DNA of 36,942 nt from Gammaproteobacteria bacterium (GTDB taxonomy: Bacteria > Pseudomonadota > Gammaproteobacteria > Steroidobacterales > Steroidobacteraceae), in the NCBI GenBank assembly GCA_028870705.1, contig JAGWPD010000242.1:1-36942 (forward strand), in the 5' to 3' direction. A model generated the notes under the pieces. It saw only the letters and a list, made by a program, of their open reading frames with translations, had not been told where the DNA came from and searched no databases. Shown piece by piece: positions 8,716 through 36,775 of this stretch (position 1 is the first letter of the stretch; the number at the start of each line of letters is the position of its first letter). A program made the position numbers and the translations under genes.

Positions 8716-8726
8716 GGCTGCGCCGC

Positions 8727-8732: not shown

Positions 8733-8746
8733 GCAATCGATTTCAC

Positions 8747-9952: not shown

Positions 9953-9957
9953 CACTT

Positions 9958-10530: not shown

Positions 10531-10579
10531 GCGGAATGCCACGAATGAGTCGTGTTGCGCCCGATTTGCGCTTGGCGCC

Positions 10580-11632: not shown

Positions 11633-11668
11633 GGCATTCGTTTCATGGCATTCGTTTCATGGCATTCG
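11631..11668. repeat. 14-bp tandem repeat, 2.7 copies, at the malQ-lacI junction
   Basis: The unit ATGGCATTCGTTTC occurs at 11631-11644 and 11645-11658, with a partial third copy at 11659-11668. On the minus strand each copy holds ATGCCATGAAACGA. The malQ stop falls in one copy, and the LacI start codon (11630-11632) overlaps the edge of another. The unit is not a multiple of three, so gain or loss of a copy changes the spacing of the two genes. Confidence 0.85.
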
Positions 11669-15980: not shown

Positions 15981-16012
15981 CGCAATCGATCTTAAGGTGG
16001 GGCCCCGTCGAG

Positions 16013-16018
16013 TATAGT
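16013..16018 (+). promoter_or_regulatory. -10 element TATAGT for glgB
   Basis: TATAGT (5/6 match) ends 9 bases before the glgB ATG. A standard start site about 7 bases downstream would leave a leader of only a few bases. The 47-base gap between glgC and glgB must hold both divergent promoters. No good -35 was seen. Confidence 0.4.
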
Positions 16019-16027
16019 ACGCCCGCA

Positions 16028-18199: not shown

Positions 18200-18209
18200 G
18201 CGCGCCGGG

Positions 18210-21541: not shown

Positions 21542-22249
21542 GTGAATCTGTACATTCAGGAAATGGCTGACCCGGTAAGAGCTTGCGATTTTCGAAGCCG
21601 CTTGATCGATCCCGCGCGACCATTGCACCGCGTTGGCCAAGCGCTCATCGCGGCCAGCCTGATTATGGCTTGCGGTCAGGATCAAGCCGCCGGGGCAGGC
21701 GCTGTGGCAACCGCTTCAGTGCCAACCGCCGCCACGGCGGATCAGTGCCTGCCGGGCGAGCGCGGCTTCCTGCGCGCCAGGCTCAGGGGCGCGATCGAGG
21801 CCGACCTCGACTGGCGCGGCGCCGCGATCCAGTGCGAAGGTGGCGCGCGACCTGATGGCCGGGGCATCCGCGTCAGCTTCCTCGGTCCGGCCGATGCGCG
21901 CGGGCAGCGCCTGAGGCTCGTGTTCGGCATCGCTGCGGCGCCGGGCCATGCGCGCACGGCGACGGCGGCGACCAATGTCACGCTGATCGTCGAAGGCGCG
22001 GACCGCGTCTACACCACGGCCGGCGGCGAGCGCTGCGCGATCGACGCGCTGGTGCAGGAGCCGCTGCCGACCGCCGGACCACCCGCCGCCAGCCAGGAGA
22101 GCCGCCAGTACCGCGTCGCCGCGCGCGGCTACTGCATCGATCCGGCCGCGCTGCTCGATGGCAGCGCACGGGTGTACATCAATCGCTTCGATTTCGCGGG
22201 CGTGGCCCGCTTTGAGGACAACGATTTGCATGCAACGCGCCATGACTGA
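21542..22249 (+). CDS. putative lipoprotein of unknown function
   Basis: Up to 235 aa from the GTG at 21542; an ATG at 21563 and a TTG at 21602 are alternative starts with no clear ribosome site for any of them. A hydrophobic segment ends in a lipobox-like LIMAC (ALIAASLIMACGQ), so the mature protein probably begins at that cysteine and is membrane-anchored. The rest is Ala/Arg-rich with scattered cysteines (DQCLPG, QCEGG, ERCAID, YCIDP) that could form disulfides in the periplasm. I recognise no family. Its stop overlaps the start of the DUF192 gene by 8 bases, so the two are probably co-translated. Confidence 0.75.
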   Translation: MNLYIQEMADPVRACDFRSRLIDPARPLHRVGQALIAASLIMACGQDQAAGAGAVATASVPTAATADQCLPGERGFLRARLRGAIEADLDWRGAAIQCEGGARPDGRGIRVSFLGPADARGQRLRLVFGIAAAPGHARTATAATNVTLIVEGADRVYTTAGGERCAIDALVQEPLPTAGPPAASQESRQYRVAARGYCIDPAALLDGSARVYINRFDFAGVARFEDNDLHATRHD

Positions 22250-22703
22250 CATCCGACGCGGTCTCCTCGCCGGCCTGATGCTGTGGTCGCTGTCGGGCGC
22301 GGCCACGGCCGCAGACGAAGACATGCCGCGCTCTGCGCTCGAAATCCGCACCGCGCACGGGCACCAGCGGTTCAACATCCGCATCGCCGACACCGCAGCC
22401 CGGCAGGAACTGGGGCTGATGTTCCAGACCCGGCTGCCGGCCGATGAAGGCATGCTGTTTCCGCAGGCAAAGCCGCGGATCGTGAGCATGTGGATGAAGA
22501 ACACTTATATACCGCTCGACATGCTGTTCATCGACAGCCACGGCCGCATCGTCTGCCTGCTGGCCATGACCAAACCCCAGTCGCTCGAAATCCTCAGTTG
22601 CCCCAAACCGGTGAAGGCCGTGCTCGAGATAGGCGGGGGTGAGGCGGGCGAGCGGGGAATCCGGGTCGGAGACCGGGTGCTGTACGAACTGCACAAACCT
22701 TAG
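22242..22703 (+). CDS. secreted DUF192-family protein
   Basis: A 153-aa protein with a signal peptide (MTDIRRGLLAGLMLWSLSGA, cleavage near ATAADE) followed by a DUF192 domain: FNIRIADTAARQELGLMFQTRLPADEGMLF, MWMKNTYIPLDMLFID and the end VLEIGGGEAGERGIRVGDRV. DUF192 proteins are small beta-rich exported proteins found in many bacteria and archaea; their function is not established. The start at 22242 is preferred over 22230 because it yields a standard signal peptide. It overlaps the lipoprotein gene by ATGACTGA. Confidence 0.92.
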   Translation: MTDIRRGLLAGLMLWSLSGAATAADEDMPRSALEIRTAHGHQRFNIRIADTAARQELGLMFQTRLPADEGMLFPQAKPRIVSMWMKNTYIPLDMLFIDSHGRIVCLLAMTKPQSLEILSCPKPVKAVLEIGGGEAGERGIRVGDRVLYELHKP

Positions 22704-23054: not shown

Positions 23055-25988
23055 ATGCAAAATTTGAATGGAATTGATTCCGGTTCCGGCCCTAGGGATC
23101 TGCGTAACGCGATCCGCTATGCGCTGGCCGCTGGAGCTGGAGCAGTAGCGAGTCTCGGCACGCAGTCCGCTGTGGCCCAAACGGCCCCGGAGTCGAAATC
23201 TGCCGACAACCAGGGCCTCGAAGAAGTCATCGTTACTGGCACGCGAATTCGCCGTGTGGACCAGGAGACCGCCAATCCGGTCATCACGATTTCCCATGAA
23301 AACATCGAAAAATCCGGCATCGCGAACATCGGTGATCTCGTGGCGCGTCTGCCCAGTGCGGCCGGCGCCGCGATCAACCCGGCGACCAACAACGGCGGCG
23401 GGTTCGGCGAGACCAACATCGAACTTCGCGGTCTTGAGGCCCGCCGTACGCTGATCCTTGTAGACGGCCGCCGCATCGGCATCGTCGGCGCAAGTGACGC
23501 GACTGACGTCAGCCAGATCCCGGTTTCCATGATTGAGCGTGTCGAAGTGCTGAAGGAGGGCGCAGGCGCCATCTACGGCTCAGACGCCATTGCCGGCGTA
23601 GTCAATTTCATCACGCGCAAGGACATCAACGGCCTGGAACTGCATGCCGACTACGGCGTGACCTCGCGCAATGACGGCGCACATAATTCCGTCAGCGCCA
23701 CCTTCGGCAGCGCCACCGACAAGATGAGTTTTGTTCTGGGTGGCAGCGTTTCCAAGCAGGACCAGGTATTCGCGGGCAACCGCGACTACTCTTCGCACGC
23801 GCTTTATTTCTACGGCGGTACCAGTGGCGTCGTCGTCGGCGGTTCGAGTCGCGTGCCGACGGGCCGCATTTTTCTGCCGGCGGGCAGCGCACTGCGCACG
23901 CAGTACGGCTGCAGTAGCCTTACGCGCGTTGCCGGCGCGGCCGGCACCGCCCCCGCCGACTATCGGTGCTTCAAGAATCCGGCCGACTTGTTCAATTACC
24001 AGCCGTACAACCTGATCATGACACCGCTCGAGCGCTCGGCGGTGTTTTCCAAGGTCAATTACGAAATCAACGATTACGCGGACGTGTACGCCAACGTGCT
24101 GGTCAACCGTACGCACTCCGGCTTCCACATTGCGCCGCTCCCATTCGACTCGATCAACGACGACATCACGCTTTCGAAGAACAGCATCTACAACATATTC
24201 GGCATCGATTTTGGCGGCATCTCGGGAGCCAACCCCGACTTTACTCTGCGCACCGTGGCTTTTGGCGATCGTAAGAGCGACACGGTTTCAGATAGTAAAA
24301 TCGTCAACGGGGGCGTGAAGGGCAAGCTCGCCGACACCGGCTGGAACTGGGACCTGAATCTCAGCTACAGCCGACTCGACCAGCTTGCGAACGTGACCGG
24401 CTATTATGCACATTCGTCACTCCAGGCTGCCGTGGGCCCATCGTTCATCGACGCCACTGGCACCCCAACATGCGGTACGCCGACAGCGCCGATCAGCGGT
24501 TGTATTCCTGTCAACTTATTCAATCCGACGGCGGCCGGCCAAGATGCAGCCATCAAGTCAGTGTCGGCTGACTACAACACCAACAACACCTCGACCTACA
24601 AGGCGGTCGCGCTGGATTTGAACGGTAAGGTGTACACGCTGCCGGCGGGCGACCTGCAGGCCGCGGTAGGTTTCGAATACAACGATCGCAAGGGGATTTT
24701 CAACGCCGACAGCATCGTGCAGGCGACGCCACCGTTGTACCTGACCTGCGGCCTCTCGCAGGAAACTTGCACCGGCAATACCAACGGCGGCTACAACAGC
24801 AAGCAGGAATACCTGGAACTGTATGTGCCGTTGCTCAAGGACATGCCGGCCGCGCATTCGCTGTCGCTCGACTACGGTTTGCGCCACGCCAACTACGAGT
24901 TATTTGGGTCCTCGACACGGTCCGACTTCAAAATCGAGTACCGGCCGATCAAAGACCTGCTGGTGCGGGGCACTTATTCGCAGATCTTCCGCGTGCCCAC
25001 CGTCTCCGACATCGCATCGAGCCCGGTTAATTCGTCGATTACCTTCAATGACCCATGCACCGGCCTAACGACGGCGCAGGCAACCGGTCCAAATGCCGCA
25101 AATATCGCGCTGGCCTGCGCGGGCGTTGTTCCCGGCACCAATTTTGCGCAGCCCAATGGTCAGATCACAGGCCTGCTGGAGAGCAATAAAAACGCAAAAC
25201 CGGAGACCGGTTCGGTCACTACTTACGGTTTCGTTTGGGAACCGCATCAGGTATCTGGTTTGTCGCTGGAAGTGGACATGTGGAGCTACACGATCAACGA
25301 ACTGATCACGACGCTCGATCCTAACTATTCGATCAATCAGTGCATCACTTCGGGCAACCCTTACTACTGCAGCCTCGTGCACCGCTATACCTCGGGCCCG
25401 AACTCGGGGCTGATCCTGGTGTTCGAATCACCGACCTTCAACATCGGTAGTCTGAAGACCGACGGCATGGATTTCGATGTTCGTTACAATCTGAAGGACA
25501 CGCGTATCGGTTCCTTCGCGTTCACGGCTGATGTTACCCGCGTCACCAAGTATGTGAACATTCCGGCGCCTGGGGCCGCGCCGGACGACAAACTGGGCAC
25601 CTATACCACTCAGTTCGGCAATATCAGCAAGCTGCGTGGGTTGATGACGGTTGGCTGGAACTATAAGAGGTTCGACGCGCTATTGACCGGTCGGTACCTC
25701 GGCGCGATTGATGTACCGCATCCGACCCGTTCGGGCAAGGATCCGACCGGCAAACCGTACGCGCCGGGCGCCGAGCCCCCGCTGCCGATCGCCTCGCAGA
25801 CATACTTAGACTTCGAGGTCGGGGTCAGCTTGCCGCACCAGGTCCGGTTCCAGCTGGGCGTGCGTAACTTGACCGACAAGCAGGCTCCGGTTCTCTACCA
25901 GAACAACGTGACCAACGCGAACACCGACGTGAACACCTACGACACGCTCGGGCGGCAGTACTTCGCGACTCTCGGCGCGAAGTTCTAA
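23055..25988 (+). CDS. TonB-dependent receptor, full length
   Basis: Outer-membrane transporter of 977 aa. The N-terminus is followed by a signal-like stretch (YALAAGAGAVASLGTQSAVAQ) and a TonB-box-like LEEVIVTGTRI. The plug domain (about 70-180) contains NIELRGLEARRTLILVDGRRIG and MIERVEVLKEGAGAIYGSDAIAGVVNFITRKD. The C-terminal barrel ends with an aromatic residue (YFATLGAKF), as expected for outer-membrane insertion. The barrel contains several cysteines (for example QYGCSSL, YRCFKN, CGTPTAPISGC), unlike most such barrels. A strong terminator follows. The next genes encode sulfotransferases and 2OG oxygenases, so the ligand may be their product or substrate, but it cannot be named. Confidence 0.95.
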   Translation: MQNLNGIDSGSGPRDLRNAIRYALAAGAGAVASLGTQSAVAQTAPESKSADNQGLEEVIVTGTRIRRVDQETANPVITISHENIEKSGIANIGDLVARLPSAAGAAINPATNNGGGFGETNIELRGLEARRTLILVDGRRIGIVGASDATDVSQIPVSMIERVEVLKEGAGAIYGSDAIAGVVNFITRKDINGLELHADYGVTSRNDGAHNSVSATFGSATDKMSFVLGGSVSKQDQVFAGNRDYSSHALYFYGGTSGVVVGGSSRVPTGRIFLPAGSALRTQYGCSSLTRVAGAAGTAPADYRCFKNPADLFNYQPYNLIMTPLERSAVFSKVNYEINDYADVYANVLVNRTHSGFHIAPLPFDSINDDITLSKNSIYNIFGIDFGGISGANPDFTLRTVAFGDRKSDTVSDSKIVNGGVKGKLADTGWNWDLNLSYSRLDQLANVTGYYAHSSLQAAVGPSFIDATGTPTCGTPTAPISGCIPVNLFNPTAAGQDAAIKSVSADYNTNNTSTYKAVALDLNGKVYTLPAGDLQAAVGFEYNDRKGIFNADSIVQATPPLYLTCGLSQETCTGNTNGGYNSKQEYLELYVPLLKDMPAAHSLSLDYGLRHANYELFGSSTRSDFKIEYRPIKDLLVRGTYSQIFRVPTVSDIASSPVNSSITFNDPCTGLTTAQATGPNAANIALACAGVVPGTNFAQPNGQITGLLESNKNAKPETGSVTTYGFVWEPHQVSGLSLEVDMWSYTINELITTLDPNYSINQCITSGNPYYCSLVHRYTSGPNSGLILVFESPTFNIGSLKTDGMDFDVRYNLKDTRIGSFAFTADVTRVTKYVNIPAPGAAPDDKLGTYTTQFGNISKLRGLMTVGWNYKRFDALLTGRYLGAIDVPHPTRSGKDPTGKPYAPGAEPPLPIASQTYLDFEVGVSLPHQVRFQLGVRNLTDKQAPVLYQNNVTNANTDVNTYDTLGRQYFATLGAKF

Positions 25989-26010
25989 GCAGAATCTGTT
26001 TGCAACTCTA

Positions 26011-26040
26011 GGCCGCGCGGACTTCCGCGCGGCCTTTTTT
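26011..26040 (+). terminator. rho-independent terminator of the second TBDR gene
   Basis: A perfect 10-bp GC stem, GGCCGCGCGG (26011-26020) and CCGCGCGGCC (26025-26034), has the loop ACTT and is followed by six T. It lies 22 bases after the receptor stop and 24 bases before the next gene, so that gene needs its own promoter. Confidence 0.95.
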
Positions 26041-26048
26041 ATTTCCCG

Positions 26049-26054
26049 TATCAT
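26049..26054 (+). promoter_or_regulatory. candidate -10 for the TPR-sulfotransferase gene
   Basis: TATCAT (5/6) ends 10 bases before the ATG at 26065, in the only 24 bases left after the terminator. Any -35 would fall inside the terminator stem, and none is recognisable. If real, the message is nearly leaderless. Confidence 0.3.
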
Positions 26055-26064
26055 TCGTGCCCGC

Positions 26065-27936
26065 ATGGCAGCACAGCCCCCAAACCCTGAGGTATACGCG
26101 GCACTCGCTACCGAACTGCTCGAGCAAGGTGATGTGCCAGGGGCCGAGGCGCAGTGCCGCGCGGCGCTGGCCATGAACCCGGGTCATGTCGGGGCACTCA
26201 GCATCCAGGGACTCCTGTTGCACAATACCAGCCGCTTCGATGAGGCCGAGGCTGTCTACATGCGCCTGGCTGCGCTGCAGCCGCAAGAGGGTCTCCACTG
26301 GATGAACGTGGGCACGGCGCGGCGCGGCGGTGGGCGTATCGACGATGCGTTGTCGGCCTACGCCCGGGCCGCAGCCCTGGGTGCGTCTTCGGCCGATTTC
26401 TACTACAACGTCGCGCTCGCGCACCTTGAGCGCAACGACTTGGAATCCGCGCGCGCTCTTTTGGCCAAGGCCCTTGCGCTTGCCCCCGAGGATACGGAGA
26501 TCCGCTTTCGCTACGCTCAGTGCTGCTACGACAGCCTGCGCCAGGACGAGGCACTCGCAGCGCTCACAGGGTGGGAGCAGTACGGCGCACCGACCCAGGC
26601 TCTGGCCGCCGAAATTGGCCACCTGCTGCTTAAACTCGGTGCAGCCAACGAGGCCGAAACGGCGTTGCGCCAGGCGACCGCCGGAGCCGAAGCGGATTTA
26701 CAGGCCAGGCTTGTGCTCGTACAGGTGCTCGAGCGCAGTAATCGGGTCGACGAGGCCAGGGGGGAATTGGAACGGCTGGCCGCCGAGCCTCGCGCCGCGG
26801 TGCTGGGCAGAGAATTGCAGCTGACCAAAGCCCGCATGGCGCATCGCGACAGGCAATACGACCTGGCGATCAGGATCTATCGGGAGGCTGTCGACGCCTG
26901 CACGGACTTGGCCAACCGGCATTTCTCGCTCTTCCCGCTCGCCAAGGCGCTGGATTCCGCGGGACGTTACGAGGAAGCCCACTCTGCGCTGCTCGAGGCT
27001 CACGCCTCCCAGGTCGAATACCTGCGCCAGGCCGCACCCATCACGGCATTGCGCGGAGCGCCGCTCATGGGGATCACTGAGTACAGCTGTAACAGCGGCG
27101 ATGTCGCCCTCTGGCGGGACGCGCATGCACCCGGACCGGAGGCCAGCCCCGTGTTCATCGTGGCTTTTCCACGCTCCGGCACCACGCTGCTCGAACTGGC
27201 CCTCGACGCCCACCCTCGGCTGCAGTCCATGGACGAACAGCCGTTCATGCAGAACGTGCTTGAGGACTTGGCCAGCACAGGCGCGCGATACCCGCTGGAG
27301 TTGAGCCAGCTGGGGACAGCCGACCTGGATCGCGCGCGGTCAGGCTACTGGGAAAGGGTGGGCCACAAGCTCACGCTCCGGCCAGGCCAACGCCTGGTCG
27401 ACAAGAACCCGCTCAACCTGCTTCGCCTGCCGGCAATACGTCGGGTGTTTCCCAACTCCCACATCCTGCTGGCGATCCGCCACCCCTGCGACGTCGCTCT
27501 CAGCTGCTACATGCAGCATTTCCGGGCTCCCGATTTTGCACTTATGTGCCGTGACCTGACTACACTCGCCACCGGCTTCCGGCGCGCCTTTGATTTCTGG
27601 TACCAGCAACAGGCCATGCTTGCGGCCAATGTGCTCGAGCTGCGATATGAACGGTATGTCGCGGATTTTGACGCGCAGTCACGCGGCATCATTGAATTCC
27701 TCGGATTGCCCTGGCACGACGCGGTACTGACGCCCGGCCAGCAGGCGCTGCGCAAAGGCTTCATCAGCACGCCCAGTTATACGCAGGTGGTGCAGCCTGT
27801 GAATGACCGCTCGGTGGGCCGCTGGCAGCGGTATCAGCACCACTTTGCAAGTGCGCTGTCGGTATTGCAGCCCTACCTCCAGCGCTGGGGCTACGCTGGC
27901 TTGGCGGCAGGCTTGAGCGGCTCGAACAGCAGGTAG
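26065..27936 (+). CDS. TPR-repeat sulfotransferase
   Basis: A 623-aa two-part protein. Residues about 1-320 are tandem TPR helices (for example ALSIQGLLLHNTSRFDEAEAVY and DFYYNVALAHLERNDLESARALL), a protein-binding scaffold. Residues about 360-610 are a PAPS-dependent sulfotransferase: the 5'-phosphosulfate loop is VFIVAFPRSGTTLLE (363-377) and the 3'-phosphate motif is IRHPCDVALSCYMQHF (471-486). It has no signal peptide, so it should act in the cytoplasm. The architecture resembles bacterial tyrosylprotein-sulfotransferase-like proteins; acceptors of the TPR-fused forms are largely unknown. The 3' end overlaps the convergent 2OG oxygenase gene by 46 bases. It is the first enzyme gene after the TBDR and its terminator. 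Confidence 0.93.
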   Translation: MAAQPPNPEVYAALATELLEQGDVPGAEAQCRAALAMNPGHVGALSIQGLLLHNTSRFDEAEAVYMRLAALQPQEGLHWMNVGTARRGGGRIDDALSAYARAAALGASSADFYYNVALAHLERNDLESARALLAKALALAPEDTEIRFRYAQCCYDSLRQDEALAALTGWEQYGAPTQALAAEIGHLLLKLGAANEAETALRQATAGAEADLQARLVLVQVLERSNRVDEARGELERLAAEPRAAVLGRELQLTKARMAHRDRQYDLAIRIYREAVDACTDLANRHFSLFPLAKALDSAGRYEEAHSALLEAHASQVEYLRQAAPITALRGAPLMGITEYSCNSGDVALWRDAHAPGPEASPVFIVAFPRSGTTLLELALDAHPRLQSMDEQPFMQNVLEDLASTGARYPLELSQLGTADLDRARSGYWERVGHKLTLRPGQRLVDKNPLNLLRLPAIRRVFPNSHILLAIRHPCDVALSCYMQHFRAPDFALMCRDLTTLATGFRRAFDFWYQQQAMLAANVLELRYERYVADFDAQSRGIIEFLGLPWHDAVLTPGQQALRKGFISTPSYTQVVQPVNDRSVGRWQRYQHHFASALSVLQPYLQRWGYAGLAAGLSGSNSR

Positions 27937-28487
27937 GTAGAAATAATGTACTTGTCGCCCGACTGCGGCGGCGCGCCTTCGTGCTGGTACATCCAATAGG
28001 GCGGGAAGATCAGCAGTCGGCCGGCCTTTGGTACAATTTCGCGCCCAATCTCGGGAAAGCGCGTCTGGCCTCCCGTCGCGACATCGTTTAGATACCACAT
28101 CAACACCAGGTACCGGTTCGCGACGAAGTCGACCGCGTCAAAATGCAATTGGAACTGCTCCTCAAGACCGGGCCGGTAACGCTTGATCACAAGGTCAGAA
28201 ATCAGCGGCGTGTTCGGAATTGGTATGCTAAGGCCGATGTCGCGGTTGTAGCGCTCGAGCGCCCTATCAATGAATTGGCGGAACATCTGCAGGAAGGCCT
28301 GATCTGACATGCGTGTCACGTTCAACTCAGTCCAGCCCGACTGCTCCAGGCCAGCGCGGACTTTGCGGCCGTTGGGCTTCTGGAATCGTTGCAGGGAATT
28401 GAAGGACGCGATGAGCTGCCGGCATAAGTGGTCGCTCAGGTCGTTGTCGTAGGAGCGCACATAATGGTTGAGATCTGCGTGGTTCAT
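27891..28487 (-). CDS. 2-oxoglutarate/Fe(II) oxygenase, prolyl-4-hydroxylase-like
   Basis: A 198-aa oxygenase of the prolyl-4-hydroxylase type. The iron ligands are H115 and D117 (QLHFDAVDF) and H169 (MYQHEGAPP), and K179 (GDKYIIST) fits the 2-oxoglutarate-binding basic residue. The sequence RYLVLMWYLNDVATGGQTRFP is typical of the group. It should hydroxylate a peptide or small-molecule carbon using oxygen. The start at 28487 is used because longer frames read antisense through the TPR-AspH gene. It lies head to head with that gene (13 bases between start codons) and tail to tail with the TPR-sulfotransferase. Confidence 0.88.
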   Translation of the reverse strand: MNHADLNHYVRSYDNDLSDHLCRQLIASFNSLQRFQKPNGRKVRAGLEQSGWTELNVTRMSDQAFLQMFRQFIDRALERYNRDIGLSIPIPNTPLISDLVIKRYRPGLEEQFQLHFDAVDFVANRYLVLMWYLNDVATGGQTRFPEIGREIVPKAGRLLIFPPYWMYQHEGAPPQSGDKYIISTYLLFEPLKPAAKPA

Positions 28488-28500
28488 GGTCGGGAAAATT

Positions 28501-29775
28501 ATGACGTCCGCCGCTGAAGCGCAACAGCTGTTGCGCCAAGGCCGCGTGGCCGAGGCCGAGCGCGCATTCCTCAAGATACTGGACTCCGAGCCCAATCATG
28601 TCGAGGCGCTGAACGTGGCGGCGCTGATCGCGCTACGAAATGGCGATGCCCCGCGTGCGCTCGAACTGCTGCAGCGCGGCGTGGTGATTGAACCTGCCAA
28701 TGCGATCACGCGGCATCACCTGGGACTGGCGCAGGAAGCCGTGGGCGACTTGCAGGCTGCTGCCGAGGCCCAAGCCGCCGCCGTGCAGGCAGCGCCGCAG
28801 TTGCATATCGCGCGGCTGCACCTTGGCCGCGCGCTCGAGTTGCTCGGCCGCCATAGCGACGCAGTCGTCCAGTATGCGCGCGCCCTGGCCGATGCACAGC
28901 AGCAGGGTCGATGGCTCAATGCCGACACGACACCCAAGCCGTTACAGCCGATCATCGCGCACGCCGTGGTGCAGGTCCGCACCGGGCGGCGCGCGGCATT
29001 CCAGCAGCTGTTTACCCCTATCCAGGAACGATACGGCGCCGACTCGCTCGAGCGAGTCGAGAAATGCCTGCGCGTTTATTTTAATGAAGAGGCGGCCGTG
29101 CATCCGGATCCGCGACAACATCCCAGCTTTCTGTATTTTCCCGATTTGCCAACCAGCGCCTACCTCGATCTGTCCATGTGCCCCTGGCTGCCAGCACTGG
29201 AAGCGCGGACGGCGGAAGTCCGCGCCGAGATGCAGGCACTGTTGCCATCTGCGCAGGGCCGAGAACGGGTGTTCGACTCAGACGAACTCGAACAGGTCAA
29301 CTTGCGCGGTCTCGACGCGCCGCCGAGCTGGAACGGCTACTATTTCTACCGGCACGGCGTGCGCCGTGCGGAGAACTGCCAGGCCTGCCCGAAAACGGCG
29401 GCCGCGCTCGAGATGCTGCCGCTCGCGCGGATCAGGGAACACGGACCCGAGGTGCTCTATTCGGTCTTCACGCCTGGCACGCACCTGTTGCCGCACCGGG
29501 GCGTGACCAACACACGGCTGGTGGGACACTTGCCACTCATGGTACCGGACAATTGCATATTGAATGTGGGCGGCGAACGTCACCAATGGAAGGAAGGCCG
29601 GGTCGTCGTGTTTGACGACACTTACGAGCACGAAGCCTGGAATCACAGCAACCGGACCCGGGTGGTGATGATATTTGATATCTGGAACCCGAACTTGACC
29701 GAGGCGGAGCGGGCCGCGGTGACCGATCTCATCGGTGAAATCGGCAATTTCCGTCACGCCACCGAAGCTGCGTGA
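28501..29775 (+). CDS. TPR-repeat aspartyl/asparaginyl beta-hydroxylase
   Basis: A 424-aa protein with TPR helices at about 1-135 and an AspH-type 2OG oxygenase domain at about 215-410. The catalytic segment HRGVTNTRLVGHLPLMVP (332-349) carries the first iron histidine H332 in the HxG-like form of the AspH family. The second is H377 in DDTYEHEAWNHS, and R387 fits the 2-oxoglutarate site. In animals this family hydroxylates Asp/Asn in EGF-like domains; bacterial targets are mostly unknown. A CxxC (NCQACP, 292-297) lies before the catalytic part. The ATG at 28501 is chosen because it starts the TPR fold; upstream ATGs overlap the divergent gene. It is first in a tight three-gene operon. Confidence 0.92.
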   Translation: MTSAAEAQQLLRQGRVAEAERAFLKILDSEPNHVEALNVAALIALRNGDAPRALELLQRGVVIEPANAITRHHLGLAQEAVGDLQAAAEAQAAAVQAAPQLHIARLHLGRALELLGRHSDAVVQYARALADAQQQGRWLNADTTPKPLQPIIAHAVVQVRTGRRAAFQQLFTPIQERYGADSLERVEKCLRVYFNEEAAVHPDPRQHPSFLYFPDLPTSAYLDLSMCPWLPALEARTAEVRAEMQALLPSAQGRERVFDSDELEQVNLRGLDAPPSWNGYYFYRHGVRRAENCQACPKTAAALEMLPLARIREHGPEVLYSVFTPGTHLLPHRGVTNTRLVGHLPLMVPDNCILNVGGERHQWKEGRVVVFDDTYEHEAWNHSNRTRVVMIFDIWNPNLTEAERAAVTDLIGEIGNFRHATEAA

Positions 29776-29793
29776 CGCCCCGCGGAGAATCAC

Positions 29794-31611
29794 GTGCGAT
29801 TGCCGCAGCCTTTCATACGCCTGCCAGTCCGGTTTGACGCTGCGCAATTGCGAGACGAAGTATCAGCAATGCCAGCGAGCGCCTGGGCGATGCATCCCAA
29901 TGAAATCGAGGGCAACAGCTCGGTCCGGTTAATCAGTGTCGACGGCGGCGAGAACGACGACGTCAACGGCGTCATGATGCCGACCGCGCACCTGCGCAGC
30001 TCTCCGTATATCCGCCAGGTGCTCGCCGGATTCGCCGTTGTGTGGGGTCGCTCGCGCCTGATGCGGCTGGCTCCAGGTGCCGAGGTTCCGCAGCACTCTG
30101 ATATTAACTATCACTGGTTCTCGCGCGTTCGCCTTCACATTCCAGTGGTCACGAGTCCGGAAGTGCGCTTCTTCTGCGGCGAACAGGACGTTCACATGGC
30201 GGCTGGTGAAGCCTGGCTGTTCGACAACTGGCGTCCACATCGGGTTATAAATCCCGCCAGTCAGGAGCGCATACACCTGGTGGCGGACACCTCCGGCACG
30301 GCTGCGTTCTGGCAGTTTGCATTAAGCGCGCTCGGCCCCAGCCAAGGCGATCAGCTGCGCGCATACCAGCCCGGCCTGGAAACCGCATTGCTTACTGAGC
30401 GCACGATATTGCGGCCTGTCATGTCGCCGGCTGAAGTGGAATTCCTGATCCTCGACCTGCGCGCCGAGCTCACCACGGCGGCCAATGCGCCCGAGCAACC
30501 TGCGCGCATTGCCAATCTCCACGCGGTGCTGGAAGGTTTCTGCAAGGATTGGCGGCAGCTTTACCTGCTGCATGGCGAGGCGCCCAGCGGCTGGTACGAC
30601 TTCACGCGGCTGCGCGACGGCCTGCGCGAGGTCGCACGCAACCTCGCCGAAGACCTGATTACGCGCAGCAACAGGGTCGGCGCCTTCAAAGTCCTGGAAG
30701 GGCGCGTGTTGCGTGCGGCACTTTCGCTGCCCGAGCCTGTGCCGGCGTCCGCGCCGGCCACCGGACCATTGCGCTCGCCAAATCTCGAGCGGCCCGTATT
30801 CATCGTGGCGGCGCCGCGTTCAGGCAGCACGCTACTGTTTGAGACCCTGGCCGCAAGCGAACAGCTCGTGACCTTGGGCGGTGAAGCGCATTGGCTGGTG
30901 GAAAGCATTCGCGAGTTGCAGCTCGGTATGCCCAGTGTGGAGTCGAACCGCCTGCTGGCCGAGCACGCCACACCGACGGTCGCTGCAAAAATCATGGCGC
31001 AGATCGGCGAGCAGCTGCGCGATTCCTCCGGCAACCCAGTGGCTCTGCACAGTACGGTGCGCTTCCTGGAAAAAACGCCGAAGAATGCGCTGCGCATTCC
31101 TTTTTTCGACCGGCTCTTTCCAGACGCCCTGTTTATCTTTCTGTGGCGTGATCCACGCGAAAATCTGGGCAGCATCATGGACGCATGGGAGTCCGGCCAA
31201 TTGAGGACCTACAGCGTCTTAGCGGGTTTCGAGGGGCCATGGTCTATGTTGCTGCCACCGGGCTGGCCGGCCATGCGCGGGCGGCCGCTTGAAGAAATCG
31301 CCGCCTTTCAATGGGAAACAACCAACCGGACCGTGCTCGACGATCTGAAATTGATGCCGCGGCAGCGCTGGACCAGTCTCAGTTACTTCGAGCTACTCGC
31401 GGATCCGGTGCGCGCCGTGCGGCGCCTTTGTCAATTCATGGAGATCCAGGCCGACCCTGCATTGTTGCGGCGCGCGAACGGCCCCCTGCCGCTGTCGCGC
31501 TTCACACTGACTCCTCCGACCGCAGATAAATGGCGCCGCAACGAGGCGGCAATCCGGCGCATGCTGCCCTCGATCGACGCCACCTGGCAACGGCTGAGAG
31601 CGCTGGCCTAG
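29794..31611 (+). CDS. AspH-like oxygenase fused to a sulfotransferase
   Basis: A 605-aa bifunctional protein. Residues about 1-170 form an AspH/cupin-type 2OG oxygenase with H101 and D103 (PQHSDINYHW), H149 (WRPHRVIN) and R159. Residues about 332-600 form a sulfotransferase with PVFIVAAPRSGSTLLFETLA (334-353) as the phosphosulfate loop and WRDPRENLGSIMDAW (451-465) as the 3'-phosphate motif. A helical linker of about 150 residues joins them. One chain could hydroxylate and then sulfate the same substrate. It starts with GTG, with a GGAG ribosome site (29784-29787) 6 bases upstream. It lies 18 bases after the TPR-AspH gene, and its TAG is immediately followed by the ATG of the methyltransferase gene. 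Confidence 0.9.
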   Translation: MRLPQPFIRLPVRFDAAQLRDEVSAMPASAWAMHPNEIEGNSSVRLISVDGGENDDVNGVMMPTAHLRSSPYIRQVLAGFAVVWGRSRLMRLAPGAEVPQHSDINYHWFSRVRLHIPVVTSPEVRFFCGEQDVHMAAGEAWLFDNWRPHRVINPASQERIHLVADTSGTAAFWQFALSALGPSQGDQLRAYQPGLETALLTERTILRPVMSPAEVEFLILDLRAELTTAANAPEQPARIANLHAVLEGFCKDWRQLYLLHGEAPSGWYDFTRLRDGLREVARNLAEDLITRSNRVGAFKVLEGRVLRAALSLPEPVPASAPATGPLRSPNLERPVFIVAAPRSGSTLLFETLAASEQLVTLGGEAHWLVESIRELQLGMPSVESNRLLAEHATPTVAAKIMAQIGEQLRDSSGNPVALHSTVRFLEKTPKNALRIPFFDRLFPDALFIFLWRDPRENLGSIMDAWESGQLRTYSVLAGFEGPWSMLLPPGWPAMRGRPLEEIAAFQWETTNRTVLDDLKLMPRQRWTSLSYFELLADPVRAVRRLCQFMEIQADPALLRRANGPLPLSRFTLTPPTADKWRRNEAAIRRMLPSIDATWQRLRALA

Positions 31612-32763
31612 ATGGCCATCCTGCTTGTGTTTGCTCCCGATGCGCTTGTCCGCTTTCGCGGCGGCCACGTGCTGATTCACACCAGCAATCCCGGCATGCC
31701 GGCCTTCGAGACTGACAATCCGGCACTCATTGCATGGGTCTGCCAATTCGCCCGACCGGCGGATCCCGACCAATTGCGCATGGCGCTGCCCGCCTCGGAT
31801 CGCACGGTGGCCGGGCAGGTGCTCGATTACCTGCGGCGCAGCGGCGTACTGGTGGCGACTGACCAGTCAGATGAGGGCACACCCAACGCCGCGGAACGCA
31901 GCGGTCGCACACAGGAAAAACTGCGTGCCCTGGCGCGCAGCACCTATGAACTCGCCTGCGACCTGCTCGGTATGGGTCCGGCGGCTGAGCAGGAACTGGT
32001 GCGCGCCAGCGGAATCGGCGTGGAACAGCGGTTGCTAGGCATGTTGGCCGCGACCGATGGCCTGCGCAAGGAGCTGCAGTCCATGCGCGCATCGGCAGTG
32101 GCTATGCAGCTCCAAGGCCTGCAGATAGATGCCCGTGCGCGTGGATTGAAGCTGCACATCGGTTGCGGCCAAGGCCATCTGCCCGGATGGATCAACATCG
32201 ACGTGCATCCGGCGCCGCTGGCCCTGAACGTGCTGCGCGGACTGCCGTTCAGCGATGCCTCGGCAGAGTTTGTTTTCGTTTCGCACTTGCTCGAGCATCT
32301 CTATTTCCCGCGTGACGTGCAGCCCTTCCTCGCCGAGCTGCGGCGCGTGCTCGCTCCGGGTGGCATCGTACGCATTGTGGTGCCAGACATCGGCAAGTGC
32401 ATCGAGGCTTACGTGCGAAATGACCGGGATTTCTTCGCCAGCCGCCGAGAGACCTGGCCATGGTGGCCGAGCAATCCGACGCGGTTGGAGGACTTCCTTG
32501 CCTATGCGGGCGCGGGCCCCGAGCCCGCCTTCCTGTTCGAGTCGCATAAGTACGGCTATGACTTTGAAACGTTGCAGCGCGTGCTCAACGACGCGGGCTT
32601 CGTGTCAGTGATTGAGTCTGGTTACATGGCAAGTGAACACATGGCGCTTCGCGTAGATGAGATCAGCGCCGTAGCGCGGGCCACTTACGGTCAGCGTCAC
32701 TATTCGTTGTTCGTCGAGGCCAGCGGCATTGCCTGGGCGGGCTCCGGGGCGCCGAATTCATAG
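31612..32763 (+). CDS. SAM-dependent methyltransferase with a PqqD/RRE-like N-terminal domain
   Basis: A 383-aa protein. The C-terminal half is a class I methyltransferase: LKLHIGCGQGHLPGWINIDV (179-198) binds SAM, then LPFSDASAEFVFVSHLLEHL and LRRVLAPGGIVRIVVPD. The N-terminal 85 residues (LLVFAPDALVRFRGGHVLIHT, then ALIAWVCQFARPADPDQLRMAL, then VAGQVLDYLRRSGVLVA) have the strand-strand-helix layout of PqqD-type winged-helix domains, which bind peptide substrates in RiPP pathways. That match is by pattern only. It directly abuts the preceding stop (TAGATG), so it is translationally coupled to the hydroxylase-sulfotransferase. The 3' end overlaps the convergent sulfotransferase by 64 bases. 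Confidence 0.85.
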   Translation: MAILLVFAPDALVRFRGGHVLIHTSNPGMPAFETDNPALIAWVCQFARPADPDQLRMALPASDRTVAGQVLDYLRRSGVLVATDQSDEGTPNAAERSGRTQEKLRALARSTYELACDLLGMGPAAEQELVRASGIGVEQRLLGMLAATDGLRKELQSMRASAVAMQLQGLQIDARARGLKLHIGCGQGHLPGWINIDVHPAPLALNVLRGLPFSDASAEFVFVSHLLEHLYFPRDVQPFLAELRRVLAPGGIVRIVVPDIGKCIEAYVRNDRDFFASRRETWPWWPSNPTRLEDFLAYAGAGPEPAFLFESHKYGYDFETLQRVLNDAGFVSVIESGYMASEHMALRVDEISAVARATYGQRHYSLFVEASGIAWAGSGAPNS

Positions 32764-33440
32764 CCGTGACGTTCGATCACCTCGGCGTCGCGCAGGGCGA
32801 CCAATTCGCGCAGGGCGTCGCTGTAGTAGTTCGTGTAACCATCATGGCGTGAAGTATTGCGTGGTGCCGCGACGGCGATGAAATTCATCATCTCCTCGCC
32901 CACCGCCTGGCCTGCCGCGGTCAGCATGTCAGGCAGCGCGTCGCGCAGTTCTTCCGAGCGTCCGATGCGCACTTGGGCGCCGACGCCGCCATACATGTAG
33001 CGATAGAGGTAGCTGTAGAAACCGAGCCGACTGCCACGAATCGGGGCCAACGCGGCCTTTGGCAGATTTAGCCCCTGATTGCTGTACGTGGACGGTAACG
33101 CGCGCAGCACCAGATCGAGCCGGATACTGCCCGCTCCCAGGTCCAACATGTTGCGCAAAGTGTCGCCAAAATCGAGCCGGCCGTCATCACTGAGGATGCG
33201 ATAGAGAAAATTTGGGTTGGCCTGCTGCTGCTGGAACGAATACCAAGAGACGTAGTAGCTCCAAGGATTGCGCACGAAACCCAGAATCGGCAGGTGCCTC
33301 GCTTCCTGCGGGATCATGTTGCGCGGCAGGTGATATCCCACCTGGCGCGCTTCGGGCAGGAAGCGCAGCAGGCACTCATTGACGAAGGTGCCACCCGACT
33401 TGTGCAGGTGCAGGAACACCAGGCGACTGGTCATGATCAT
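32700..33440 (-). CDS. sulfotransferase family protein (short form)
   Basis: A 246-aa single-domain sulfotransferase. The phosphosulfate loop is VFLHLHKSGGTFVNE (8-22) and the 3'-phosphate motif is GFVRNPWSYYVSWYSF (54-69). The HLHKSGGT wording is like the heparan-sulfate or chondroitin-type (Sulfotransfer_2-like) group rather than the APRSGST/FPRSGTT type of the two other sulfotransferases here, so it may act on a different acceptor. The start is 33440 or 33434, with no strong ribosome site. It is the first of the enzyme genes on the minus strand beyond the operon and overlaps the methyltransferase gene end to end. Confidence 0.9.
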   Translation of the reverse strand: MIMTSRLVFLHLHKSGGTFVNECLLRFLPEARQVGYHLPRNMIPQEARHLPILGFVRNPWSYYVSWYSFQQQQANPNFLYRILSDDGRLDFGDTLRNMLDLGAGSIRLDLVLRALPSTYSNQGLNLPKAALAPIRGSRLGFYSYLYRYMYGGVGAQVRIGRSEELRDALPDMLTAAGQAVGEEMMNFIAVAAPRNTSRHDGYTNYYSDALRELVALRDAEVIERHGYEFGAPEPAQAMPLASTNNE

Positions 33441-33493
33441 AGTGGCGCCAGTGCCTGCCGGGTGAATCGGCTGTGGGCCAGGACCGATCCGGC

Positions 33494-33871
33494 CTATTTA
33501 CCCTGCGGCGGCGCTACCTGCGTCGTGATGTACTGCAACCGGCGCTGAGTCTCCTCGCGCAATGCAATCATTTCACCTTCCGTCATGCAGGTATTATCGT
33601 GTTGCAGGTGCGAGCCGAGCTTAATGTTCGAGCTACAATAGAGTGTCCTGCCGTTGCTGTCGACCAGCTTGTAGCCCAGGCGCTTCAGGCCGACTATCTC
33701 CTCGGCGCTAAGCCTGCTCACGGGCACCACGTGCAAGCCAGCTGCGGGAGCCGCTGGGGGCGCAGCCAAGGTCGGGGCGGCCGCCGGTATCGCAGGCGCA
33801 GGCGCACTGGCACATCCGGCCAGGGTCAGGGTCAATCCGAAGGTTAAAACGAGGGATCTCAAGTTGCGCAT
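33494..33871 (-). CDS. small lipoprotein, unknown function
   Basis: A 125-aa lipoprotein. The ATG at 33869-33871 gives a lipoprotein signal (MRNLRSLVLTFGLTLTLAGC) with lipobox LAGC and has GAGG upstream. An Ala/Pro-rich linker follows, and then a compact C-terminal part with GYKLVDSNGRTLYCSSN and DNTCMTEGEMIALREE. The two cysteines about 17 residues apart could form a disulfide. Similar short exported proteins with a 'LYC...TCMTE' ending occur in related gammaproteobacteria, as far as I recall, without known function. It lies between two minus-strand enzyme genes of the modification island. Confidence 0.85.
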   Translation of the reverse strand: MRNLRSLVLTFGLTLTLAGCASAPAPAIPAAAPTLAAPPAAPAAGLHVVPVSRLSAEEIVGLKRLGYKLVDSNGRTLYCSSNIKLGSHLQHDNTCMTEGEMIALREETQRRLQYITTQVAPPQGK

Positions 33872-33961
33872 TCGGTACCTCGGGAAAGCAGGATCACACG
33901 ATAATCCCTGTAATACATCGATGCAACCGCACAGCGGGCCTCGATTCGCCGGCACGCGCCG

Positions 33962-34606
33962 CTACGAGTGCACAACAGCCCGTATGTGAGCCTCCACGCG
34001 GCTGTCGAATTGTCCCAAGCCCCGGTCGCCTTGTTGCAGCAGTACCAGCAACTCCGCAGCGGGCAGGAAATCGCAGATCAAGTGAGTGCGGGCAACGGTA
34101 GTGTGCTCATTCCAAACGCCGTGCATTGCATTATTGTTGAGTACCCAGACCTCTCCCGGCCGCATTACGTAGACTCGAGAACCGGACAGCATCCAAGCTC
34201 GCTCATGCGTGACCACGGGCACGTGCACGCGCAGGGATTTGGAAAAGTACGCGGCCTTGTCTACGTGTGGTGCCACCGTTGCACCGGGCGGAAGCCGCGC
34301 CAACAGGCAACGCAACGGCGGCGCTGGAATCAGCGTACGGATGATTTCCTGCACGTATGGCAGGTATTGCAGTGCCGGCCGGTCCTCGACTAGCCGGTCG
34401 CCCTCGGCGGGTGCATGCCCGCGCAGAAAAACCGCCTCGGCCGGTTGATGCACGCCGACGCGTCCGCCGCGGCTACCCCAAAAATTATCGGGCAGACCCT
34501 CTACATCGCGCCGCAAGCGCTCGCCGTCGACCTGCAGCGTCAGGCGTGCGCAGCCGCCCACCAGATTGTCCTTGTCGAGTACTGCGTAGCCAGGTAAGTC
34601 GAGCAT
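33962..34606 (-). CDS. AspH-like 2OG/Fe(II) oxygenase
   Basis: A 214-aa single-domain oxygenase. The iron ligands fit H114, D116 (VAPHVDKAAYF) and H162 (NAMHGVWNE), and R173 (VARTHLICDF) fits the 2-oxoglutarate site. This layout, LLARLPPGATVAPHVD followed by LRVHVPVVTHERAWML, matches the oxygenase half of the fused protein at 29794-31611, so the two are paralogous domains. The ATG at 34606 is used; an in-frame ATG at 34669 would add 21 residues with no signal peptide. The longer open frame beyond it is antisense to the next genes. No strong ribosome site is seen. Confidence 0.88.
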   Translation of the reverse strand: MLDLPGYAVLDKDNLVGGCARLTLQVDGERLRRDVEGLPDNFWGSRGGRVGVHQPAEAVFLRGHAPAEGDRLVEDRPALQYLPYVQEIIRTLIPAPPLRCLLARLPPGATVAPHVDKAAYFSKSLRVHVPVVTHERAWMLSGSRVYVMRPGEVWVLNNNAMHGVWNEHTTVARTHLICDFLPAAELLVLLQQGDRGLGQFDSRVEAHIRAVVHS

Positions 34607-34753
34607 GCAACAATGATAGCCGAGATCCGTGCTGAACCGGCACGGCGGGCTTGTACCGCCGTGCCGCATGAGCGCAATATCTGGCCGCACGCGGCTGGTC
34701 GATTCCCGCGTTTCATTGGAGCACATCAAAATGTTGCCCCGCACACAGAGGTT

Positions 34754-35095
34754 ATGTCCGACGCTGGCCGTACTGTTTTCGTGACGATGAGCATTGCGCA
34801 CGCCACCACGTCCGAGACCCCCAACCTCTACAGCGCCGCGGAGCTGCTTCCCGGCCGCAGCGCCGGGGACCTGCACCGCAACGCGCTCGACCACCCGGCC
34901 GAGATCCTGCGCCTTAGCGGGATCCGCCGCGACATGCGGGTCGCCGACTTCCTCGCCGGCGATGGCTACTTCAGTGAACTGCTGAGCAACGTGGTCGGTC
35001 CCGGCGGACGCGTGCTCATGATCAACAAGGAGCCGATGCTCGGCAAGACCGATCGATTCGTGCTGGTGCTGAGGAAGCAGCCACCGCATCACTAG
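34754..35095 (+). pseudogene. remnant of a COG4798-type predicted methyltransferase
   Basis: A 113-aa frame. Residues about 25-90 match the start of the exported predicted methyltransferases of this type: HRNALDHPAEILRLSGIRRDMRVADFLAGDGYFSELLSNVVGPGGRVL. The next residues (GKTDRFVLVLRKQ) match the very end of the same family, so the middle of about 120-150 residues seems to be missing, in frame. The SAM motif has DFLAGDGY where DLGAGGGY is usual. The normal signal peptide is also absent. I judge it a decayed gene, although a short expressed protein is possible. It sits between the divergent oxygenase gene and the S10 peptidase gene. Confidence 0.6.
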
Positions 35096-35122: not shown

Positions 35123-36775
35123 ATGATTGAAGTCAGGAACACGCTGATTCACGTTGCCACATGCGCGCTGCTGGGTGCGGCGCCGATTGCGCGATCTGCA
35201 CCCGCAGTGGGCGCCGTCGCCAGCAAGGCCGAGTCGGCCGCGCCGACAACACCAGCAACGCCGGCATCCATTGCGGCCGCGGCTGCGCCCGAACTTTTTG
35301 CAGTCGAAGATCGGTTGAGCGAAGGCTCGGTCACGATCGGCGGACGCAGAATCGACTACCAGGCGCATGCGGGCACGCTGGTCGTGCACGGCCGGGGCTG
35401 GGACGATGTGCCGCAGAACGCGGACAAGGACGCCAAAGTGCCGCCCGCCGAGGCGAGCATGTTCTACACCGCCTATTTCGCCAAGAATCCCGGCGCGGGA
35501 GCGCGCCCGGTCACCTTCCTGTTCAACGGCGGGCCTGGCTCCTCGACGATCTGGCTGCACATGGGCGCGTTCGGCCCGAAGCGGGTGCTGACACCAGGCG
35601 ATACACATCCGGGCGCCGCGCCGTACACGGTGGTCAACAACGAGTACAGCCTGCTCGATGCGAGCGACCTGGTATTCGTCGATGCGCCCGGCACCGGCTA
35701 CAGCCGTATCAGCGGCAAGGACCGGGAGAAGGAATTCTTCACCATCGACGGCGATGCGCACGCCTTCGCCGAATTCATCCAGCAATTCCTGTCAAAGTAC
35801 GGGCGCTGGAACTCGCCGAAATTCCTGTTTGGCGAAAGCTATGGCACGACACGCGTTGCCAGGCTGATCGCGATGCTGGAGACCGAGAAGTTCATCGACT
35901 TCAACGGCGTCGTCAATCTCTCGCAGATCGAGATCTTCGATGCCAACGCCGATACGGCCGAATCCAATCCGGGCGTCGACCTGCCCTACCTGGTGGCGCT
36001 GCCCTCCTACGCCGCCACCGCCTGGTACCACCATCGCACCACGAACGCGCCGGCCACGCTGCCGGCCTTGCTGGCTGAGGTCGAGCAGTTCGCCATGCAC
36101 GACTACGCCCTCGCATTGCTGGCGGGCTCGACGCTGGATGCGGCCACGCGCCATGCCATCGCCTCGAAACTGCATGACTACACCGGCCTGCCGGTGGATT
36201 ACATCGAGAAGGCCGACCTGCGCATAGACGTGGGTGAGTTCGCGCAGAACCTGCGCGCCGACGGCGAGGCCACGGTCGGCCGGCTCGATACGCGCTTTAC
36301 CGGTCCCACCATAGACTTGCTGAGCAAGGAAGCGGACTACGATCCGCAGTTCGCCGCCGTCGGCTCGGCTTACGTTTCCGCCTTCAACGACTATGCGCGC
36401 GGCACGCTGGGGTTTGCACCGGACCGCAGTTTCAGACCCTTGCCGGCAGAGATCAACAAGGCCTGGACAGCCACGAGCGAGCACGTCTCGCTGCTGCGCG
36501 TGAAGGCGCCGAACCTGCTGCCCGACCTGGCCACGGCCATGAAGTACAACCCGCGTCTCAAGCTGATGCTCAACGCCGGATACTACGATCTGGCCACGCC
36601 GTATTATGAGGGCGTGTACGAATTGAACCACCTGCCCATCCCCGACCAGCTGCGCGCCAACATCGAGACGAAGTTCTATGAGTCGGGCCACATGGTGTAT
36701 GCGCACGAGCCCTCGCTCAAGGCCTTGCACGCGAACGTGGCCGACTTCATCCGGCGCGCTTCGCAGCCGAACTGA
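35123..36775 (+). CDS. secreted S10-family serine carboxypeptidase
   Basis: An exported peptidase of 550 aa. A signal-like N-terminus (IHVATCALLGAAPIARSA) is followed by an Ala/Pro/Thr-rich linker to about residue 58. The S10 features are in order: oxyanion NGGPGSS (135-141), catalytic S239 in FGESYGTTR, D489 in NAGYYDLATPYY, and H523 in YESGHMVYAHEPS. These enzymes remove C-terminal residues from peptides, here probably in the periplasm or outside. The ATG has a GGAG ribosome site upstream. It lies 27 bases after the methyltransferase remnant. A link to the modification island is positional only. Confidence 0.95.
   Translation: MIEVRNTLIHVATCALLGAAPIARSAPAVGAVASKAESAAPTTPATPASIAAAAAPELFAVEDRLSEGSVTIGGRRIDYQAHAGTLVVHGRGWDDVPQNADKDAKVPPAEASMFYTAYFAKNPGAGARPVTFLFNGGPGSSTIWLHMGAFGPKRVLTPGDTHPGAAPYTVVNNEYSLLDASDLVFVDAPGTGYSRISGKDREKEFFTIDGDAHAFAEFIQQFLSKYGRWNSPKFLFGESYGTTRVARLIAMLETEKFIDFNGVVNLSQIEIFDANADTAESNPGVDLPYLVALPSYAATAWYHHRTTNAPATLPALLAEVEQFAMHDYALALLAGSTLDAATRHAIASKLHDYTGLPVDYIEKADLRIDVGEFAQNLRADGEATVGRLDTRFTGPTIDLLSKEADYDPQFAAVGSAYVSAFNDYARGTLGFAPDRSFRPLPAEINKAWTATSEHVSLLRVKAPNLLPDLATAMKYNPRLKLMLNAGYYDLATPYYEGVYELNHLPIPDQLRANIETKFYESGHMVYAHEPSLKALHANVADFIRRASQPN

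Follow-up and report, generated by a model that had tools for sequence, protein, structure and literature searches.

Positions 1–36 942 of contig JAGWPD010000242.1 (assembly GCA_028870705.1), from a gammaproteobacterium of the family Steroidobacteraceae, were analysed as one stretch of DNA, hereafter called the window. Between positions 23055 and 34606 it carries a gene cassette in which a TonB-dependent receptor (TBDR) of a dedicated, cassette-specific subfamily is combined with sulfotransferases, 2-oxoglutarate (2OG)/Fe(II) oxygenases, a methyltransferase and a small exported protein with a pair of Cys residues. The core of the cassette recurs in constant order in other bacteria. We tentatively favour, giving it somewhat less than an even chance, the explanation that an exported polypeptide encoded by the cassette itself is hydroxylated and sulfated by the enzymes in the cytoplasm.

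Gene content and linkage of the cassette

Pfam profiles were compared with 20 proteins of the window, 10 of which were also compared with NCBIfam models. The TBDR gene (23055–25988, plus strand; Plug domain 1.5e-22, barrel 3.3e-25) is followed by three sulfotransferase domains, four 2OG/Fe(II) oxygenase domains (three related to Asp/Asn β-hydroxylase, AspH, and one to prolyl 4-hydroxylase, P4H) and one methyltransferase domain. A sequence-only reading of the same DNA had proposed exactly this set, and all members were recovered by Pfam or by fold. The plus strand encodes four large proteins: TPR-ST, 623 residues, a fusion of TPR and Sulfotransfer_3 (26065–27936; PF13469, 2.3e-34); TPR-AspH, 424 residues, composed of TPR and an Asp_Arg_Hydrox domain (28501–29775, with an ATG start at 28501; PF05118, 5.4e-44); the AspH-ST fusion of 605 residues, in which an AspH-like oxygenase is joined to Sulfotransfer_3 (29794–31611; PF05118, 3e-14; PF13469, 3.7e-22); and a class I methyltransferase of 383 residues (31612–32763; PF08241, 2.2e-9), the N-terminus of which (about residues 1–85) resembles the recognition element (RRE) of enzymes for ribosomally synthesized and post-translationally modified peptides (RiPPs). 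Three enzyme genes are located on the minus strand, namely those for the P4H-like oxygenase (27891–28487, 198 residues; PF13640, 3.3e-10), a short stand-alone sulfotransferase (32700–33440, 246 residues; Pfam 0.09, assigned by fold comparison) and a stand-alone AspH-like oxygenase (33962–34606, 214 residues; PF05118, 3.8e-14). The same strand carries the gene for the small Cys-pair protein (33494–33871, 125 residues), which belongs to no Pfam family and is defined by a profile of its relatives. The earlier reading had the domain architectures right; its arrangement is to be amended by the orientation of the three minus-strand enzyme genes and by the small gene, which it had missed. P4H and TPR-AspH are divergently oriented with 13 bases separating their start codons (28487–28501), and the position of P4H on the minus strand between TPR-ST and TPR-AspH is retained at other loci.

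A scan of 84 980 species genomes for the fusion protein yielded 30 loci, which according to the taxon in the record comprise 16 non-Caulobacterales and 14 Caulobacterales/Alphaproteobacteria loci. (Loci are numbered with the prefix L and genomes with the prefix G. The synteny lists omit loci numbered below 39, which are short duplicates; L044/L045 of G027, being on the same contig as L064, are omitted from the list of small-protein presence and from one other list.) The TBDR subfamily, TPR-ST and TPR-AspH are found in all 12 non-Caulobacterales fusion loci with 10 kb of upstream sequence; in L081, the receptor is at the opposite end of the cassette. The four remaining non-Caulobacterales loci are on short contigs. 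Two of them, L060 and L063, are truncated but consistent; the sequence of L087 breaks off at the fusion; and L062, with 1.1 kb available upstream of the fusion, is an exception without TPR-AspH. The core order is kept at 15 other loci, at 38–62% identity to the window proteins, and is constant in the 12 loci among genera with differing surroundings, so that chance clustering was rejected. A search of genomes for the co-occurrence of these genes had been suggested from the sequence, and absence of linkage in all related genomes had been named as a refutation; in the relatives they are indeed linked. When 16 loci are compared, the four core proteins show correlated pairwise distances (rho 0.74–0.88, not corrected for the species tree), which indicates their co-inheritance.

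The other members are less constant. Of the 14 loci that cover the place of P4H, 11 contain this gene. Out of 16 loci, 11 have the short sulfotransferase, 10 have the stand-alone AspH and 2 have the methyltransferase, which is also present in the window. Full-length methyltransferase occurs at three loci only (window, L081, L087). Among 296 genomes of the order, it was found in two, that of the window and G269, which contains the L087 contig, while two more match the methyltransferase domain only. The methyltransferase is thus a rare accessory outside the conserved core.

The TBDR of the window belongs to a dedicated receptor subfamily which is specific for the cassette. Compared with it, cassette receptors score 582–1087 bits (a truncated one 719), other receptors from the fetched loci at most 302 bits. 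Four Cys residues, which make up two extra pairs (286/305 and 565/572), are found in 16 of 16 cassette receptors and in 0–10% of 10 other receptors.

The association of such enzymes with receptors extends beyond the cassette. In three genomes of the family, with distances measured from the starts of the domain matches, 19 of 27 Sulfotransfer_3 matches have a Plug match no more than 8 kb away, as do 14 of 21 when the cassette members are left out (expected upper bound 0.16–0.22), and all 11 matches to the AspH family are in the cassette or in an adjoining TBDR array. The proximity of both enzyme types to TBDRs indicates that this coupling is a habit of the family; the cassette is its most elaborate case among the fetched loci. 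In L042 and L053, several TBDR, TPR-ST and TPR-AspH genes form arrays side by side, which suggests that these modules duplicate together. Two loci contain TPR proteins with two tandem sulfotransferase regions (L085:9077–11656 and L088:8936–11599), the second of which is 57% identical to the sulfotransferase part of the fusion.

Catalytic motifs, folds and nearest solved relatives

The predicted catalytic motifs of the sulfotransferases and oxygenases are conserved in alignments of their relatives, in line with the sequence-only reading, to which the catalytic residues looked intact, and the enzymes are predicted to be active. Invariant residues are His-115, Asp-117, His-169 and Lys-179 in P4H (18 sequences), His-101, Asp-103, His-149 and Arg-159 in the oxygenase part of the fusion together with Arg-342–Ser-343–Gly-344–Ser-345, the PAPS (3′-phosphoadenosine-5′-phosphosulfate) loop, in its sulfotransferase part (23 sequences), and His-111, Asp-113, His-159 and Arg-170 in the stand-alone AspH (13 sequences). 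In the aligned oxygenases, the His/Asp/His residues would be the iron ligands, and the Arg or Lys residues are candidates for 2OG binding. The translation of TPR-AspH shows an H-x-G and a distal His, which we take to be the pattern of ASPH. In the short sulfotransferase, His-13, Lys-14, Gly-17 and Arg-57 are invariant and Ser-15–Gly-16 nearly so (14 sequences). PAPS could be supplied by an APS (adenosine-5′-phosphosulfate) kinase, which is encoded in the genome of the window (4.2e-66).

The nearest solved relatives of TPR-ST, TPR-AspH and P4H point to protein substrates. The best sulfotransferase matches of TPR-ST in the PDB are the human enzymes TPST1 and TPST2, and the domain aligns with them in full length (TPST1, 8.5e-18 over residues 363–611, phmmer); the fusion to TPR is what distinguishes the cassette protein. 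A bacterial protein-tyrosine sulfotransferase is RaxST; no RaxX-RaxA-RaxB set is seen here. For TPR-AspH, the nearest solved structure is human ASPH, the Asp/Asn hydroxylase of EGF domains (1e-30 over residues 274–407), which has the same order of TPR and oxygenase domains. In contrast to ASPH, TPR-AspH is a bacterial protein without recognised signal peptide, and no EGF domain was found. P4H is closest to a prolyl 4-hydroxylase (3itq, 1.7e-12, profile against PDB). For the two other AspH-like domains, the substrate could also be a small molecule or an amino acid in free form. PDB profile matches of the fusion are the CurM sulfotransferase (3.4e-15, over a short stretch), L-proline cis-4-hydroxylase (4.7e-10) and TPST1 (1.6e-7), and the best match of the stand-alone AspH is again L-proline cis-4-hydroxylase (8.9e-11). 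The matches in PHROGs were confined to general oxygenase and methyltransferase entries and to unnamed ones.

The short gene is the weakest of the three sulfotransferases by sequence, with SULT at 0.05 as the only PDB match besides its marginal Pfam score, and is clear by its predicted fold. Its AlphaFold2 model has a predicted local distance difference test score (pLDDT) of 89.1. The best Foldseek match is SULT1C3 (E = 4.7e-5, probability 1.00), and the best VIA match has a Z score of 10.3 at a root mean square deviation of 3.5 over 177 aligned residues; TPST2 (Z = 9.6) and glycopeptide sulfotransferases are also among the VIA matches.

The AlphaFold2 model of the methyltransferase was computed from an alignment of three sequences. 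It has a mean pLDDT of 50.3 and is poor outside the N-terminus, where blocks within residues 1–80 reach 63–86. Pfam gives no match for the N-terminal domain. In Foldseek, ranks 1–25 for this domain are RiPP biosynthesis enzymes by their titles (best E-value 4.7e-3, none at or below 0.001). The VIA comparison gave Z scores of 9.9 for ThcOx, 8.9 for TigE, 8.8 for BmdC, 8.7 for the PbtF RRE and 8.4 for TbiB1, and matches outside the RRE group begin at 7.0. These model-based comparisons support the RRE-like fold which had been surmised from the sequence, and the domain may bind a leader. An RRE domain on a modifying enzyme, as in RiPP pathways, is thus present by fold only, and at three loci.

Substrate of the enzymes and relation to the receptor

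Genes for TBDRs are conserved beside genes for cytoplasmic 2OG/Fe(II) oxygenases in the pairs CciT–CciO, Fiu–YbiX and PiuA–PiuC, according to two reports (PMC12004947, PMC12004943). In Caulobacter, CciT requires CciO, for which roles in ligand synthesis, removal of an inhibitor and ligand oxidation have been proposed, including a cell-tethered siderophore (PMC12004947). CciT is still produced without CciO (PMC12004947), an argument against the oxygenase being needed to synthesise the receptor, though not against modification. The likeness to the cassette consists in a TBDR conserved beside a 2OG/Fe(II) oxygenase gene (12 of 12 loci) and is one of gene arrangement. While the CciT–CciO type has one oxygenase, the cassette has four oxygenase and three sulfotransferase domains in addition to TPR and RRE-like domains. 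No Fur box was found in the window at up to three mismatches from the E. coli consensus, which may not suit this organism. The cassette is a far richer form of this pairing, as it combines a receptor subfamily of its own with fused domains and a protein that may be an exported substrate. It makes the question why cytoplasmic 2OG/Fe(II) oxygenases accompany TBDR genes testable in culturable bacteria; non-pathogenic carriers of the cassette include Solimonas aquatica, Peristeroidobacter agariperforans and Ideonella alba.

Only two products of the cassette are exported, the TBDR and the small Cys-pair protein. The latter has an N-terminus resembling a signal peptide and a stretch rich in Pro and Ala; two Cys residues and C-x-T are invariant in its C-terminal motif (17 sequences). 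The window copy has a lipobox-like LAGC, whereas other copies, as read from their sequences, resemble ordinary secreted proteins. The protein occurs in 13 cassettes (window, L041, L059, L060, L061, L062, L066, L067, L068, L072, L074, L083 and G016), the match in L074 being weaker (1e-8); its presence is undecidable at L039, L046, L065 and L087. The cassette copy is the sole match to the small-protein profile in the genome of the window and in G000, G016 and G042. Weaker matches are found elsewhere in the genome in G018 (one), G046 (one) and G027 (two). Relatives are also encoded near other TBDR modules in L054 and L056 and as second copies in L059 and L083. No specific match to this protein came from NCBIfam. 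Similar small proteins are probably common in sphingomonads. No other conserved small precursor open reading frame (ORF) stood out beyond closely related genomes among the matches listed; most of these were ORFs in the shadow of conserved genes. We regard the small Cys-pair protein as a leading candidate for a substrate or partner of the enzymes.

According to the explanation favoured here, the 2OG/Fe(II) oxygenases would hydroxylate and the PAPS sulfotransferases would sulfate a polypeptide in the cytoplasm, prior to export, and some versions of the cassette would also methylate it. The target chain may be held by the TPR domains and, in the methyltransferase, by the RRE-like domain, and the modified product would then work with the cassette TBDR at the outer membrane. 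Modification inside the cell is suggested by the cytoplasmic location of the cofactors PAPS and 2OG and by the fact that no signal peptide was recognised in the enzymes, and a polypeptide is favoured because of the protein-type enzymes, the TPR domains and the RRE-like domain. In line with this, full-length copies of the methyltransferase were found only within cassettes. Among the polypeptides, the small Cys-pair protein is our first choice, albeit a doubtful one; the TBDR itself is an unlikely target, and some other, unrecognised peptide a very unlikely one. The receptor has many cassette-specific Asp, Asn, Tyr, Ser and Thr positions, as orthologs would show, so these sites neither support nor refute its being the substrate. 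The small protein could even be a ribosomally made, surface-held ligand, hydroxylated, sulfated and at times methylated in the cytoplasm, exported, lipid-anchored in some species, and capturing a metal ion or other cargo that it hands to its TBDR. We consider this improbable; such a ligand would be a gene-encoded equivalent of the siderophore tethered to the cell that has been postulated for CciT–CciO, and a new class of modified protein.

Several observations weigh against a cassette-encoded polypeptide as substrate. The small Cys-pair protein is absent from five cassettes (G046, L063, L064, L069, L081), and no leader peptidase or dedicated exporter is among the nine cassette proteins. Each of the methyltransferase, the short sulfotransferase, the last AspH and P4H is lacking in part of the cassettes, which argues against one shared substrate encoded there. 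The RRE-like domain lacks a Pfam match and comes from a low-scoring model of three sequences; moreover, its fold also serves BmdC, an oxidase linked to a non-ribosomal peptide synthetase (NRPS). The AspH parts of the fusion and of the stand-alone protein are closer to hydroxylases of free L-proline than to ASPH, and one AspH-like domain matches a model for nonproteinogenic amino acid hydroxylases, below the cut-off. Finally, nine Caulobacterales loci of the Brevundimonas type, with 10 kb flanks, hold the fusion without TBDR, TPR-ST and TPR-AspH. Of five genomes with such a solitary fusion, two contain a match to the small protein, away from the fusion, and the other three contain none; an AspH-type protein related to TPR-AspH was found in three of the five and is lacking in two. 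The fusion would thus work there without the cassette receptor or small protein, on some substrate outside the cassette.

The enzymes might instead produce or modify a ligand that is a small molecule, either similar to a siderophore or derived from an amino acid, and is imported by the TBDR, comparable to CciO, PiuC and YbiX beside CciT, PiuA and Fiu. We regard this as possible though hardly probable, because of the proline hydroxylase-like domains and the precedent of CciT, the function of which strictly needs its oxygenase (PMC12004947); CurM, the best match of the sulfotransferase part of the fusion, is a polyketide sulfotransferase and fits as well. On the other hand, a scaffold-forming enzyme, be it an NRPS, a polyketide synthase (PKS) or an NRPS-independent siderophore (NIS) synthetase, is not among the 20 window proteins scanned; Pfam also recognised no exporter family there save two proteins of the major facilitator superfamily upstream. 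The protein-modifying relatives of TPR-ST, TPR-AspH and P4H argue in the same direction, as would, if that consensus suits this organism, the lack of a site resembling the E. coli Fur box in the window, and the RRE-like domain would be without a role.

It is unlikely that the enzymes share no substrate and belong to separate pathways collected at a hot spot for TBDR-linked modules. Different TBDR/TPR-ST/TPR-AspH modules do occupy the same neighbourhood in L042, L047 and L053, Caulobacterales carry the fusion without the cassette, and accessory genes have been gained or lost; but the core order is constant in genera with different surroundings, and the combination of AspH and sulfotransferase in one protein, or in adjacent genes in Peiella (L077), indicates that the two reactions belong together. 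Hydroxylation and sulfation of a cell-surface lipid or polysaccharide, with LpxO/OlsC-like and carbohydrate sulfotransferase-like enzymes and a TBDR that is a neighbour for another reason, is highly improbable. TPR-AspH matches the OlsC and LpxO models (5e-29 and 7.5e-21) without reaching their cut-offs, whereas Pfam detects neither a glycosyltransferase nor a lipid enzyme among the cassette proteins, and TPST and CurM are the nearest relatives of the sulfotransferase domains in the two large proteins.

A TBDR and a sulfotransferase also occur together in methanobactin operons, where a RiPP is accompanied by the TBDR MbnT and two of the Group II operons also encode the sulfotransferase MbnS (PMC3621798); the peptide product is a feature of methanobactin. 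The cassette differs in having no match to MbnB (DUF692) or MbnC, no recognised short MbnA-like precursor and no MATE exporter. Since MbnB and MbnC are without match among the 20 window proteins, membership in the methanobactin group was rejected. We would place the cassette with the TBDR-linked oxygenase systems, and not as a methanobactin, Rax or proven RiPP class. As the sequence-only reading had supposed, no account of this gene set was found in searches of open-access full-text literature, subscription papers and preprints being outside that scope. If the substrate is a polypeptide, the cassette would represent a combined hydroxylation and sulfation of a bacterial envelope protein or peptide, for which the searches likewise found no description.

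Surroundings of the cassette and related loci

In Caulobacterales, a conserved exported protein of about 200 residues is encoded directly beside the solitary fusion (L070:11694–12404), with relatives in L071, L073, L076, L077 and L078; apart from a weak match to a lipoprotein site, it belongs to no family. The split version of the AspH–sulfotransferase fusion in Peiella occupies L077:10001–11854.

Between the TBDR and the enzyme genes of the window, there is a strong terminator-like stem-loop (26010–26035, plus strand) with a stem of 11 pairs, 10 of them G–C, and a T-rich tail. Terminator-like sites are not in excess in the region as a whole (13 versus 10.5 ± 3.6 in shuffled sequences), a promoter scan gave three sites where 2.9 are expected, and neither Rfam elements nor tRNAs were detected in the window. 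An S10 carboxypeptidase-like gene (35123–36775) adjoins the cassette; its conservation with the cassette was not found in the fetched loci.

The assembly of the window comprises 2.99 Mb in 343 contigs. Upstream of the cassette, a glycogen/starch block (835–20771) encodes α-amylases, a 4-α-glucanotransferase, a GH57 protein and a phosphorylase as recognised by Pfam, and a branching enzyme by reading of the translated ORF. A block of phosphorylase, branching enzyme, GH57 protein and glucanotransferase also adjoins the island in G046 and G027 (L043, L045, L064), probably as inherited synteny. Directly beside the TBDR (21542–22703) are an ORF for an exported protein without Pfam match and a DUF192 gene (3.6e-30). 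This pair adjoins TBDR/TPR-ST/TPR-AspH islands in L040, L043, L045, L047, L048, L059, L060, L061, L064 and L083, and as the TBDR module beside it is a different one at some of the loci, the neighbourhood looks like a hot spot. On the other side of the cassette, the ORF at 34613–35095 has no Pfam match and resembles the start and the end of a class I methyltransferase, the middle of which is gone; it is perhaps a decayed gene.

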